Both the position numbers and the translations under genes were made by a program. This document shows, piece by piece, positions 9,501-24,472 of a stretch of DNA of 57,782 nucleotides (its first letter is position 1; each line of letters starts with the position of its first letter). This DNA comes from Ramicandelaber brevisporus (taxonomy: Eukaryota > Kickxellomycota > Ramicandelaberales > Ramicandelaberaceae), in the NCBI GenBank assembly GCA_025201865.1, contig MU602669.1, positions 89,813 to 147,594 on the forward strand, given 5' to 3'. The notes under the pieces are model-generated. The model saw only the letters and a list, made by a program, of their open reading frames with translations, was not told the DNA's origin and searched no databases.

Positions 9501-10155
9501 TCAGCAGAGTCTTGATTGGCGTACCAAGCACCTTGACTCCAAGACGCTCCAAGACGCCAGATTTGTCCAGAGCGATACCGCAGTTGAGGGCAGTTTGACC
9601 ACCAAACGTCAGCAAGATGCCATCGGGACGCTCGCGCTCCAGAATGTGCGTCAGGTACTCTGGCGTGACAGGTAAAAAGTACACCTTGTCAGCCAAATCA
9701 CGCGACGTTTGGATGGTGGCGATGTTTGGATTGACCAGGATCGTCTCGATTCCAGATTCACGCAGAGCCTTGATTGCCTGGGAGCCAGAGTAGTCAAACT
9801 CGCCGGCCTGGCCGATGGAGAGGCCGCCTGAGCCAACGACAAGCACCTTCTTGACATTTTCCTTTGGCACGCTGGCAAGAATCTCGGACGATACGAACTC
9901 TGCACGTTCAGCTGGCGACGAACTGAACCAGCGGGCAACGGCAGCGGTGATACCGGAGCCATAGCGAGTCTTGACGTGACGATTCAGACCAGAAACAGAC
10001 GATGGGGTTGTGGCAGTGGCTGCTACCGTCGCAGTGGAAAGACGGGCAGCGGAACGAATGGCGGCAGGAGCGAGAGCGAGGGCTTTGGCACGGGCCACAG
10101 CAGACGAGGCGGTGGCGAGGGAGTTGGCGCGTGAGATGGAGCGTAATCCAAGCAT
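6562..10155 (-). CDS. CPA2: Carbamoyl-phosphate synthase, arginine-specific, large chain
   Basis: The 1197-residue product makes carbamoyl phosphate from ammonia, bicarbonate and two ATP for arginine synthesis, paired with a separate glutamine amidotransferase (CPA1/arg-2), which is not in this window. The synthetase body begins near residue 102 ([20 protein letters not shown]). The first ATP-grasp half holds the family block [20 protein letters not shown]. The second half begins near residue 650 with the duplicated core, and the chain ends in an MGS-like allosteric domain. There is no fused glutaminase, ATCase or DHOase, which excludes the pyrimidine-type URA2/CAD enzyme. Residues 1-75 are rich in Arg, Ser and Ala without acids, typical of a mitochondrial presequence, as in Neurospora and unlike the cytosolic yeast enzyme. 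The leader carries an arginine attenuator uORF (10275-10352) and Gcn4-type sites. Confidence 0.95.
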
Positions 10156-10274
10156 TTGTATTTCTTTCTTTTTAGTAGTAGGTGATAGGTGATAGGTGAT
10201 AGATGATAGGTAGTAGTAGCTGCTGCTGTTGTTGTTTATGAGCGTGCTGTTGCTGCTGTTGTTGCTGTTGTTGT
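10156..10274 (-). promoter_or_regulatory. CPA2 leader between the attenuator uORF and the main start
   Basis: 119 nt of presumed 5' UTR. It contains no other ATG on the coding strand, so the attenuator uORF is the only upstream AUG between itself and CPA2. It holds GTT/GCT-type trinucleotide repeats (10217-10274) and a heptamer repeat of aggtgat (about 10180-10212). Confidence 0.6.
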
Positions 10275-10352
10275 TTATGAAGATTGAGAGGCTTTCCAGA
10301 TCTGGTCAGACAAGTAGTCGGCGCTGTTTTTCTCGTATGAGTGACGGTACAT
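10275..10352 (-). CDS. Arginine attenuator peptide (AAP) uORF of CPA2
   Basis: A 25-codon ORF from ATG (10352-10350) to TAA (10277-10275) on the CPA2 sense strand. Its second half contains [11 protein letters not shown] at residues 11-21, which matches the core of the fungal AAP (QDYLSDHLWRA in Neurospora arg-2, QDYISDHIWKT in yeast CPA1). The length (24-25 residues), Asp12 and Trp19 fall at the same positions; Asp12 is the residue known to be essential in Neurospora. AAPs stall the ribosome at their own stop codon when arginine is high, blocking scanning to the main ORF and promoting nonsense-mediated decay. The oddity is the location: known AAPs precede the small-subunit gene, while this one precedes the large-subunit gene, 119 nt ahead of it. 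The start context is ggcATGt. A ttttacag sequence ends 3 nt before the ATG, so a leader intron could end here. Confidence 0.9.
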
Positions 10353-10574
10353 GCCCTGTAAAAAGGGTGAATGCGTGTAAAGCTAAGGAGTAGCGGGTTT
10401 GAAGAGGCTGGCTAACGAAGCAGCTTGTTTCTTGTTGTTTGAGAGTGTGTTGGGTAGTGAAGTCAAGAAGCAAAAGCAGATCAGGAAAGTCGGACTGGCA
10501 GACTTCAAGGCTGATATCGGCTGGGCCGCTCAGCTCCGCCACTGCCGAATTATCGCTTTGTCATCGATAAATTT

Positions 10575-10581
10575 TGACTCA
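10575..10581 (-). promoter_or_regulatory. Gcn4/CPC1-type site TGACTCA
   Basis: A perfect TGASTCA box, the known target of the fungal bZIP activator Gcn4/CPC1 in general amino-acid control. It lies 420 nt upstream of the CPA2 start and 222 nt upstream of the attenuator uORF, a sensible promoter position for an arginine gene. Confidence 0.5.
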
Positions 10582-10842: not shown

Positions 10843-12189
10843 TTAGATTTCGCCCTCTTCAACGTACTCTTCGTCGGCATAGACCTCTTCATCAGCGGTG
10901 GCAGACTGGTACTGCTCGTACTCGTTAACCAAGTCGTTCAAGTTGGATTCGGCCTCGGTGAACTCCATCTCGTCCATGCCCTCGTCGGTGAACCAATGCA
11001 GATAAGCCTTGCGGTTGAACATCTTCTGGAACTGCTCGCGGAAACGAACAAACACCTGCATGACAGCAGTGTTGTTGGCAATAAACGTGCCCGACATGGT
11101 CTCACCTGGCGGAGCCACATCGCACTGAGCAGTCTGCACATTGTTTGGAATCCACTCAACAAACTGGGCGGCATTCTTGGTGCGCAGCGACAGCAGCTGC
11201 TCGTCAATCTGCTTCATGGACACACCGGCGCCACGGTAGATGGCGGTGGCAGTCAGGTAGCGGCCGAGACGCGGGTCGGCAGCGGCCATCATGTTGCGGC
11301 CGTCAAACATCTGGGCAGTGATGTCCTGGACAGTCAAGCTGCGGTAGCTGCGAGTGTTTGTAGCTGAGAGAGGGGCAACGCTGCTCATGAAGAAGTGCAG
11401 ACGCGGGAATGGAACCAGGTTGACAGCCATCTTGCGCAAGTCAGCGTTCAGCTGGCCTGGGAAACGCAGACAAGTGGTGACACCAGCCATGACCTTTGCA
11501 ATCAGGCTATTGAAGTCCGCGTGCGTTGGGCTTTGAATCTTGAGAACATCAGTGGAAATTCGGGTCAGAGCCTCGTTGTCAAGGCAGAAGGTCATGTCAG
11601 TGTTCTCAACCAGCTGGTGGGTCGACAAGACAGCATTGTATGGCTCGACAATCGTCTCAGACACTCCAGGAGCTGGCAGCACGGAGAAAGTGGCCATCAT
11701 GCGGTCTGGATACTCTTCGCGGATCTTGGAAATGATCAGAGTGCCCAAGCCAGAGCCAGAGCCTCCACCAAGCGAATGCACCATCTGGAAGCCCTGCAGG
11801 TTCTCACAGCGCTCAGCCTGGAGACGGACAACATCGAGCACCTTGTCAATCAACTCAGCACCCTCGGTGTAGTAGCCCTTGGCCCAGTTGTTACCAGCAC
11901 CCGAAGCGCCAGCAATGATGGTGTCGGGGTGGAAGAGCTCGCCCAATGCGCCAGACTTTAAGCTGTCAAGCGAGCCAGGTTCAAGATCAACGCAGATAGC
12001 GCGTGGGACGTACTTGTTGCCAGACGCCGCGTTGAAGTACACGTCAAGACGCTGCGCCTCGAGTGAGTCTTCAGCAGCGCGCAAGACACCGTTGGGATCA
12101 ATCTTGTGCTCAGCGAGAACGCCGTCCCAGAACGCGGAACTGACTTGATTACCACACTGGCCGACTTGAAGATGAACGATTTCTCTCAT
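10843..12189 (-). CDS. Divergent beta-tubulin
   Basis: A 448-residue beta-tubulin. The start is set at 12189 because the product then begins [15 protein letters not shown], the canonical tubulin N-terminus carrying the MREI autoregulation signal. The open frame runs 62 codons further up as an Asn/Ser repeat, which I treat as untranslated. Visible landmarks are the GTP-binding glycine loop (GGGSGSG, where most have GGGTGSG), [18 protein letters not shown], the FVEWIPNN segment and an acidic, Glu/Tyr-rich C-terminal tail. Divergence is spread through the chain (for example [21 protein letters not shown], where family members are nearly invariant). The residue at the canonical Glu198 position, a key benzimidazole contact, is Met199 here ([12 protein letters not shown]). 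Phe167 and Phe200 equivalents are kept. It is probably a specialised paralogue rather than the main beta-tubulin. Confidence 0.93.
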
Positions 12190-21940: not shown

Positions 21941-24472
21941 ATGCCGCCAAAGAGTTCCAAGCCAGCTCACACGGGCAAGACCGTCGTCGAAGCTCCATTC
22001 ATGTTAACGGACTTCCCGAGGGACATCTTGTCGTTCATCGCGCCTGAAGAAGGGCGTACATTAGCCGAGATGCAGACGAACTTTGCAGCAACTGAGGGCG
22101 ACCGCAGTAACACTGCAGTACCAGCGAAGGCTGCCAGCAAGTTCACCTGTATGCTTTGCAACGCAGTGTTTGAGACTAGTCTTCAGCAGAGATCGCACTT
22201 CCAGTCGCAGTGGCATGTCATCAATCTACAGCTACGAGATCGCACTCGCGGCCTTGGAGTGTTCGTCCCGGTTACCGAGGAGCAGTTCAACAAGCTCACC
22301 GAGGCTTTCCAGCAGAAAGATAACGCAGTTGGAGACGCTATGCGTGCTCGGGTTGACCGCGACTTGCTGGCTCTTGGTGTCCGCAGCACTCGCATTGACG
22401 ACTCTGACATTGAGAGCCTCGACTCATTCGACGAAGACGAGGATCCGCGTCCAGCATCTGCGAAACGACCCAATCCAACTCCAGCTGCAGGTAAAGGCGC
22501 TGCGGCTGCGGCTGCGGCTGCGGAACACAGCGATGATGATGACGATGACGATGAATGCGAATTCATGAGTGCTGACGAAGCTGACCGACTGAGCGGCGAT
22601 GATTACGATGTTGATGACGACATGACTGCGAGACACGCTGATGGTGACCATGGAGACATTCTCGAACAGCTGGTGGCAATGCGCATGGTTGCTGCCAAGA
22701 GAGGTGTTCTTGATCGCATCGCCGATGAACAAGCCTCTGATGCTCAGCATCTTGGTGATCATTTCTCGTGGTTCCGCCCATCATTTGCCACTGATGACAC
22801 CGTACAGCTGTATGGCATATACCGCGAGTTGCTGGTTACCCGTCGCTCCATCCGCAAGATTAATCCGCTTGATCCAAATGCACCATCTCTGCCTATGCTG
22901 ATGCTGCGTGGTCTCCATGAGATCCGCCGCCTGACTATTGCTCCGCAGTCCAAGAAGCCAGCCCTGTGGACCATCATGCTCATTGGTTCGGGGTACTTTG
23001 CCGGCGCTATCTACAATCTCTACACGCATGAAATGGTTGCTCACAAGACGTTGAAGCGATACACTGTGCGCAAGAAGCAAGGCAAGGCCCAATACTCTGT
23101 TGGTGCGGCTGGCTCGGCTGGTTCTCGCCTGCGCATGGAACAGGACAAGCGCCTCCGTGAAGACATTGAGAAGCTGATGGTCGCCTGGAAGGGATACATT
23201 GCCGATTCGTCGCACATTTTCCTCCGTGTGAGTGAGCATTATCGCCAGACTGTGCTCCGTTTCCCGTCCGACCGCAGGGGAAGCCCAGCTGCCGAAGATG
23301 CACGAAGCCACTTGATTAATTCCGATGACCCACGTATCCGCAGCATTCCGTTCACTGTCAAGAAGGGCTCGCTCGATGAGGTTCGTCGTGTTTACAAGGA
23401 GCTGCAAACTGTACGCCTTCGTTACTTGGATGGCAGCAAGATCCTCAAGCAGGATGTGCACAACCTCAAGAAGGTGGCACAGGCTGAATTGCAGGAGCAG
23501 CATGAGCTTCAACAGCAATCTGCCGCTGCGATACCAACAACACTAACCGCGGAAGCTACGACTGCAGCCACGACGACCACCACCCTTGTTGAAGGCACTT
23601 CTCCACTGGAAACTGCACAGCCCAAGACCATCACCGTTCAACCTGAAGTCAAAGAAGAGCCAGTCGAGGATCCGGAGGCTATTGCTGCTCGCTTGGCAGC
23701 CAAGCGTGAAAAGGAGCGCGAGCGCAAAAGACGTGCACGCCAGCGCAAGAGTGCCGAGAGACAGGCTCAGCTGCATAAGAATCAAGGGGCAGAAGAGACC
23801 GAGGATAGCGATGAGGACGATGATGACAGTGATGGCTCAGATTCGTCCGAGTCAGATTCGCAATACTCCATGACGAGTCGGGCTAATCGAATGTCCATTG
23901 CGCAGATTGAGGATCTCCTCACCAAAAAGCTGGCCAAGAAAGGCGATGCTTCTGCGGCCCGGTTACGCGCTATTATTCAAGAGCGCCGTGACCAAGAAAC
24001 ACGTGAGAAGCGCGTTGCTGCCATGAACAAGCGCAAGGAAGATCAACAGCGCGGTCTGCTACTCGCTGCGGCCGCGGCCGCCCCGACCGCTGAAGCCCGT
24101 GCTCAATTGTTTGAAGCTGCGGAAACTCCTACTCGAGCTGCTGCACCATCTGGCCCAACTGATGTGGTCCGTCGCGCAGTTCTCCCTGAGACGATGAAGC
24201 GCGAAGCATCCTCGTTTGCCTTCAAAGCGGATGCCCCGCGCTCTCGTTTCGCTCCTGCTCCAATTGCTGTTCCCGCAGCCAATGCTGCACCATCCAATCC
24301 CGTTTCCCCGACATCGCCAACTGCCAATGCTGCTCCAAACTCTAGTGCGCAATCCACTCCCGAGCTCAAATGTGCTGCCTGCGGAAATGCGATTACTAAG
24401 CTGGTAGTCAAGCGCAATCTGAACTTTTGTTCTGCCAAGTGCACGCTTGCTCGCGTTCTGAACAAGTCCTAA
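21941..24472 (+). CDS. VMS1: Vms1/ANKZF1-type peptidyl-tRNA hydrolase of ribosome quality control
   Basis: 843 residues. Vms1/ANKZF1 releases nascent chains from stalled 60S subunits and protects mitochondria from faulty products. A C2H2 zinc finger (CMLCNAVFETSLQQRSHFQSQWH) lies near residues 70-93. The VLRF1 hydrolase domain spans about 265-440 (ALWTIMLIGSGYFAGAIYN, HKTLKRYTVRKKQGKAQ, then AAGSAGSRLR). The Gln in GKAQ aligns with the catalytic glutamine region of the family. An acidic, Ser-rich linker and a very basic helix (RLAAKREKERERKRRARQR) follow near 585-610, and the C-terminus has a CxxC ... FCSAKC zinc-binding motif. I did not find a clean VIM (Cdc48-binding) motif; RREKRVAAMNKRK-like sequence near 690 comes close. 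Poly-Asp and Ala runs match the window's low-complexity style. Confidence 0.88.
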   Translation: MPPKSSKPAHTGKTVVEAPFMLTDFPRDILSFIAPEEGRTLAEMQTNFAATEGDRSNTAVPAKAASKFTCMLCNAVFETSLQQRSHFQSQWHVINLQLRDRTRGLGVFVPVTEEQFNKLTEAFQQKDNAVGDAMRARVDRDLLALGVRSTRIDDSDIESLDSFDEDEDPRPASAKRPNPTPAAGKGAAAAAAAAEHSDDDDDDDECEFMSADEADRLSGDDYDVDDDMTARHADGDHGDILEQLVAMRMVAAKRGVLDRIADEQASDAQHLGDHFSWFRPSFATDDTVQLYGIYRELLVTRRSIRKINPLDPNAPSLPMLMLRGLHEIRRLTIAPQSKKPALWTIMLIGSGYFAGAIYNLYTHEMVAHKTLKRYTVRKKQGKAQYSVGAAGSAGSRLRMEQDKRLREDIEKLMVAWKGYIADSSHIFLRVSEHYRQTVLRFPSDRRGSPAAEDARSHLINSDDPRIRSIPFTVKKGSLDEVRRVYKELQTVRLRYLDGSKILKQDVHNLKKVAQAELQEQHELQQQSAAAIPTTLTAEATTAATTTTTLVEGTSPLETAQPKTITVQPEVKEEPVEDPEAIAARLAAKREKERERKRRARQRKSAERQAQLHKNQGAEETEDSDEDDDDSDGSDSSESDSQYSMTSRANRMSIAQIEDLLTKKLAKKGDASAARLRAIIQERRDQETREKRVAAMNKRKEDQQRGLLLAAAAAAPTAEARAQLFEAAETPTRAAAPSGPTDVVRRAVLPETMKREASSFAFKADAPRSRFAPAPIAVPAANAAPSNPVSPTSPTANAAPNSSAQSTPELKCAACGNAITKLVVKRNLNFCSAKCTLARVLNKS

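Follow-up and report, generated by a model that had tools for sequence, protein, structure and literature searches.

In its textbook form, the arginine attenuator peptide (AAP) is a nascent-chain sensor that sits on the small subunit only, and leaky scanning is part of its known mechanism. The AAPs of Neurospora crassa arg-2 and Saccharomyces cerevisiae CPA1 are alike in being encoded by a short upstream open reading frame (uORF) that carries the core D12-Y13-(L/I)-S-D16-x-(I/L)-W19-(K/R) shortly before its stop codon, and both uORFs precede the gene of a subunit of the arginine-specific carbamoyl-phosphate synthetase (PMC7969011). For the yeast leader, a repression of about 2.5-fold is reported; the substitution D13N abolishes the response to arginine, and this aspartate corresponds to D12 in the numbering used here (PMC7969011). 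AAP stalling also sends the yeast CPA1 mRNA to decay (PMC11550727, PMC2075485).

We analyzed a stretch of 57,782 bases (the window) from Ramicandelaber brevisporus, a member of the Kickxellomycotina (Ramicandelaberales). A sequence-only reading of this DNA had described a 25-codon uORF, with D12 and W19 among its residues 11 to 21, located 119 nt before the start of CPA2 with no ATG intervening. Translation of the minus strand from 10352 to 10275 returned this frame with both residues in place, and a scan of the interval 10274..10156 found no ATG ahead of the CPA2 start codon at 10155 (Table 1). The encoded peptide has the core of the AAP family, that is, Asp12, Tyr13, Asp16 and Trp19 in a peptide whose length falls within about 24–26 residues, and it also keeps S15; in position, it lies directly upstream of the gene of an arginine-specific carbamoyl-phosphate synthetase subunit. 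It lacks the Q11 and H17 common to the N. crassa and S. cerevisiae AAPs, and has A11 and Q17 in their place. These two residues were not counted as defining, because the sister peptide encoded before CPA1 of the same genome, described below, also has A11.

Table 1. Features of the CPA2 locus, in window coordinates.
Feature	Position	Strand	Basis or remark
AAP-type uORF, 25 codons plus stop	10275..10352	-	ORF translation, ATG scan, scoring against Dikarya cores
uORF core D12-Y13-L14-S15-D16-Q17-I18-W19	10296..10319	-	Pattern searches
ATG-free spacer, 119 nt, CAA/CAG-rich, from uORF stop to CPA2 start	10156..10274	-	
CPA2, carbamoyl-phosphate synthetase large chain, 1197 aa	6562..10155	-	Pfam and protein matches
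TGAGTCA, Gcn4/CPC1-form site, 426 nt before CPA2	10575..10581	.	Weak

The ATG of the uORF is at −197 relative to the CPA2 start, and the next ATG upstream is found at −409. A tubulin gene located upstream of CPA2 on the same strand ends at 10843, which leaves 687 nt between the two genes. Position −3 is a G at the uORF start and a C at the start of CPA2, and therefore leaky scanning is not obviously favoured on the CPA2 leader; the uORF start in the CPA1 leader, in contrast, has a T at −3. The spacer combines its CAA/CAG-rich run with repeated ACCTATC units, and it is likely to be unstructured. A pyrimidine-rich CAG is present at −203, just 5′ of the uORF, and the sole match to a simple 5′ splice-site pattern between −409 and −203 is GTCTGC at −348; an intron in this leader is considered unlikely. 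An N-terminal extension of either enzyme through its uORF was discarded, given that a stop codon ends each uORF and that the two starts are out of frame with each other, being separated by 197 nt in the case of CPA2 and by 337 nt in the case of CPA1.

The identification of the downstream gene as CPA2, also part of the sequence-only reading, was corroborated by its product of 1197 residues, in which the CPSase_L_D1, D2 and D3 domains score far over the Pfam cut-offs. An MGS-like domain at the C-terminus reached 23.4 bits, just under the cut-off of 24.1, and is possibly a diverged regulatory domain. Among the matches listed, the top-scoring named relatives of CPA2, after one fused protein, belong to Dimargaris, Tieghemiomyces, Basidiobolus and Dispira. 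A 1923-residue protein labelled Albugo candida (P0003), in which CPA1 and CPA2 are joined in one chain with the amidotransferase part first, has the second-best score to the window CPA2 among the matches listed, after CPA2 itself. A long large-chain stretch is present twice in this protein, and for this reason we regard it as partly an artefact of assembly or of the gene model; it possibly comes from an organism other than the one on its label.

When the 17.9 Mb assembly was searched with CPA2, the query recovered itself, a gene on contig C186 and three weak matches, and the small-subunit family was found in two places, the gene on C186 and a separate CPA1 on C251. The C186 gene is a 2376-residue open frame of the pyrimidine type, which also holds a large-chain part that is 63% identical to CPA2. 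From the results of both queries, it follows that the genome has one arginine-type pair, whose members are on different contigs (C3 and C251). Because a separate synthetase is encoded by the pyrimidine-type gene, the CPA1/CPA2 pair could be shut for arginine alone, which agrees with the proposed lowering of both chains by arginine. The 700 nt that precede the pyrimidine-type gene contain three ATG frames, none of them AAP-like.

Within the R. brevisporus assembly, the leaders of both CPA1 and CPA2 hold an AAP-type uORF. The uORF in the CPA1 leader, located on the other contig, encodes MYLHSQEKVTADYIADHVWKSSNGNF followed by a stop codon (L003 1681..1761; CPA1 start at 2018), and its ATG is the only one from −683 to the CPA1 start. 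The proposal that an AAP-type peptide stands before the large-subunit gene was upheld at the level of sequence. Three histories had been offered for it, relocation, duplication or ancestral control of both subunits, and the first of them fails: the AAP cannot simply have moved from CPA1 to CPA2, since CPA1 of the same genome keeps an AAP of its own. The canonical arg-2/CPA1 arrangement, in which the small subunit is controlled, is not that of the CPA2 uORF, and we classed this uORF as a paralogue of the CPA1 leader, because it precedes CPA2 and its sister precedes CPA1. Hence, CPA1 and CPA2 of R. brevisporus both appear to carry AAPs, which would be paralogous.

The ungapped alignment of the two uORF peptides showed that 13 of the 25 residues are identical, and none of 200,000 shuffles reached either the score or the identity count. 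Within residues 2–10, five of nine are identical, a value matched by 64 of 200,000 shuffles. The pair scores 80 in frame, 34 in frame +1 and −5 in frame +2, although frame +1 retains 9 of 24 identities. The 12 differing positions include 14, 15, 17 and 18 of the core, where the substitutions within the pair are L/I, S/A, Q/H and I/V, while D12, Y13, D16 and W19 are retained. At the DNA level, synonymous sites differ more often than non-synonymous sites, with pS of 0.78 (10.3/13.3) versus pN of 0.38 (23.7/61.7) and a Fisher p of about 0.014 on fractional counts, which supports constraint on the peptide; these values come from one pair of 25 codons. In an alignment of four sequences (the CPA2, CPA1, N. 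crassa and S. cerevisiae peptides), only M1, D12, Y13, D16 and W19 are invariant; identity to the CPA2 peptide is 52% for its CPA1 sister and 38% for each of the N. crassa and S. cerevisiae AAPs. The N-terminal half shared by the pair points either to common descent of the two peptides or to conservation of this N-terminus among early-diverging fungi. Outside the uORFs, a comparison of the CPA1 and CPA2 leader DNA found no alignable similarity, the best match being the 10-mer AAATTTATCG, which is in opposite orientation and not significant (E 0.52). A conserved peptide within diverged surrounding DNA is the pattern that an old duplication would be expected to leave.

The shared 10-mer adjoins a TGASTCA site in both promoters (window 10565–10574; L003 1348–1357), and this may be due to chance. 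We take TGASTCA to be the Gcn4/CPC1-form site. Each CPA promoter has one; that of CPA1 reads TGACTCA and is located at −691 (L003 1327–1333), and none was found within 700 nt upstream of the pyrimidine-type gene. Because nine such sites are present in the 57,782-base window, they are weak evidence for joint transcriptional control of CPA1 and CPA2. Elsewhere in the window, positions 21941–24472 of the plus strand encode a protein in which a VLRF1 release-factor-like domain is accompanied by a weak zinc finger, presumably of the Vms1/ANKZF1 kind that acts on stalled ribosomes; its closeness to the AAP is probably a coincidence.

The specificity of the resemblance was evaluated with several searches. 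The least biased of them scored every ATG-to-stop frame of 15–60 residues (1262 frames, nested starts counted apart) with only the cores of N. crassa and S. cerevisiae as reference, over 83,156 bases comprising the window and loci L003, L004, L008, L009 and L010 of the same genome. The uORF of the CPA1 leader ranked first with 47.5 and that of CPA2 second with 46.0; the next frame reached 25.5, and the remaining frames had a mean of 0.4 with a standard deviation of 5.6. The core GAYTAYNTNNNNGAYNNNNTNTGG, a pattern composed after both peptides of this genome had been seen, has a single occurrence in the window, and none of 100 dinucleotide shuffles contained it. A stricter core pattern, composed before the CPA1 leader was read, matched the window only and gave three control matches. 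Throughout the 17.9 Mb assembly, a relaxed core pattern matched two places, which are the two leaders (one match for the reversed control), and a pattern for the N-terminal part matched the same two leaders (control 0). Both of these patterns were composed after the two peptides had been seen, and therefore they add only the absence of a third copy, for example before another arginine gene, in the assembly.

In single-sequence comparisons with structures, the sole match of the CPA2 peptide among 177,635 PDB chains was the N. crassa AAP (2xl1; weak, E 0.24), which was also the best chain for the CPA1 peptide (weak, E 0.18). The core pattern was absent from 84 loci of CPA2 relatives (944,891 bases of prokaryotic and viral contigs), a set that serves as a negative control and not as evidence on relatives of this fungus, since it consists of the best 80 of 595 relatives in bacterial or archaeal contigs and four viral-contig loci; one of the latter, L095, holds a bacterial-type carAB. 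A strict two-part AAP pattern gave no match in the viral contigs. Likewise, the AAP core did not occur in the first 200 residues of 119 CPA2 and 120 CPA1 proteins (from the best 120 matches listed for each), a result that says little because uORFs are normally absent from gene models. Two CPA1 proteins among the matches listed fit a looser half-motif at residue 153, which is inside the enzyme.

Taken together, we consider it very probable that the uORF provides the CPA2 mRNA with a working AAP, a paralogue of the one that the CPA1 mRNA carries in this genome. A random short frame that resembles an AAP by chance would agree with the modest E-value of the match to 2xl1, but this explanation is hardly credible: the frame stands second among 1262, 20 points above the third, it is on the right strand before the right gene, and neither the peptide shuffles nor those of the window reproduced it, so that the shuffles and the ranking together rule it out. 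It is also conceivable, and in our opinion unlikely, that the uORF descends from a copied CPA1 leader and still encodes an AAP that no longer regulates CPA2, or that it is absent from the mature transcript. Such a relic is compatible with an ATG-free leader that begins only at −409 when the uORF is at −197, and with the change of two Dikarya-conserved residues in the CPA2 copy; however, the frame is intact and shows an excess of synonymous over non-synonymous differences, and a relic of that age is expected to have decayed, because the flanking DNA can no longer be aligned at all.

A further reading keeps the uORF active, with a CPA2 copy that stalls ribosomes constitutively, or responds to another arginine threshold or another ligand than the CPA1 copy does. 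The differences at 12 of 25 positions, four of them in the core, and the unlike start contexts (G versus T at −3) would fit with this possibility, which we nevertheless judge quite improbable, given that the core changes are limited to L/I, S/A, Q/H and I/V and that D12, Y13, D16 and W19 are maintained.

The preferred reading, an active AAP on each of the two mRNAs, builds on direct observations: the position and sequence of the uORF, the homology of the two peptides, the absence of a third copy of the motif and the excess of synonymous differences. By analogy with Neurospora and yeast, the uORF would be transcribed, and its peptide would sense arginine, stall ribosomes, repress CPA2 and promote decay of its mRNA. 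A subset of the scanning ribosomes would initiate at the CPA2 uORF and, once they reach the stop codon of this uORF at high arginine, the nascent peptide would block the peptidyl transferase centre; a ribosome arrested in this way would then hold back the scanning subunits, and may expose the CPA2 mRNA to decay. Because high arginine most likely causes each peptide to stall ribosomes at its stop codon, the output of CPA2 would drop along with that of CPA1, and both chains, encoded by two genes on separate contigs, would be lowered by one signal. It seems likely that a single kind of arrest peptide operates here as a shared translational switch, with arginine lowering both synthetase chains through paralogous nascent peptides, as a eukaryotic equivalent of an operon whose two genes share one attenuator. 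This dual control may be an ancestral fungal state, with a later loss of the CPA2 peptide in Dikarya, or may result from a duplication of the leader in the Kickxellomycotina line.

If confirmed, a paralogous AAP on the partner subunit would mean that the leader of an arrest peptide can be duplicated inside one genome and build a small regulon. As a natural pair of diverged AAPs, with 12 of 25 residues different and the four anchors unchanged, the CPA1 and CPA2 peptides lend themselves to structure-function studies. They also extend the AAP outside Dikarya, and make the ancestral control of both subunits in fungi a testable idea.

Among known systems, the AAP literature, in the parts of the sources available, refers to the small subunit, or to the synthetase with no large subunit named (PMC7969011, PMC11550727, PMC2075485, PMC8370653). 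In the literature searched, mostly open-access papers, we found no description of an AAP before a large-subunit gene. The uORF of Toxoplasma gondii ApiAT1 is similar in being AAP-like and arginine-responsive, in preceding a gene other than that of the small subunit and in requiring a conserved Asp; it differs in that it has 33 residues and precedes a transporter gene in an apicomplexan, whereas the R. brevisporus copies are paralogues in one fungus (PMC8370653). Its authors considered that a function shared with the AAP would be a remarkable convergence (PMC8370653). The uORF of AdoMetDC, which mediates polyamine feedback, is comparable in that its nascent peptide responds to the product of the pathway by delaying termination (PMC2075485), but its ligand, peptide and gene are all different. 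In comparison with the AAPs of Dikarya, the CPA2 peptide has A11 and Q17 where these have Q and H, another N-terminus, and six residues instead of five after W19. Known AAPs are on the small (glutamine amidotransferase) subunit, whereas in R. brevisporus the peptide is on the large subunit and its sister on the small one; what is new here is the same peptide on another gene, with two paralogous copies in one genome.
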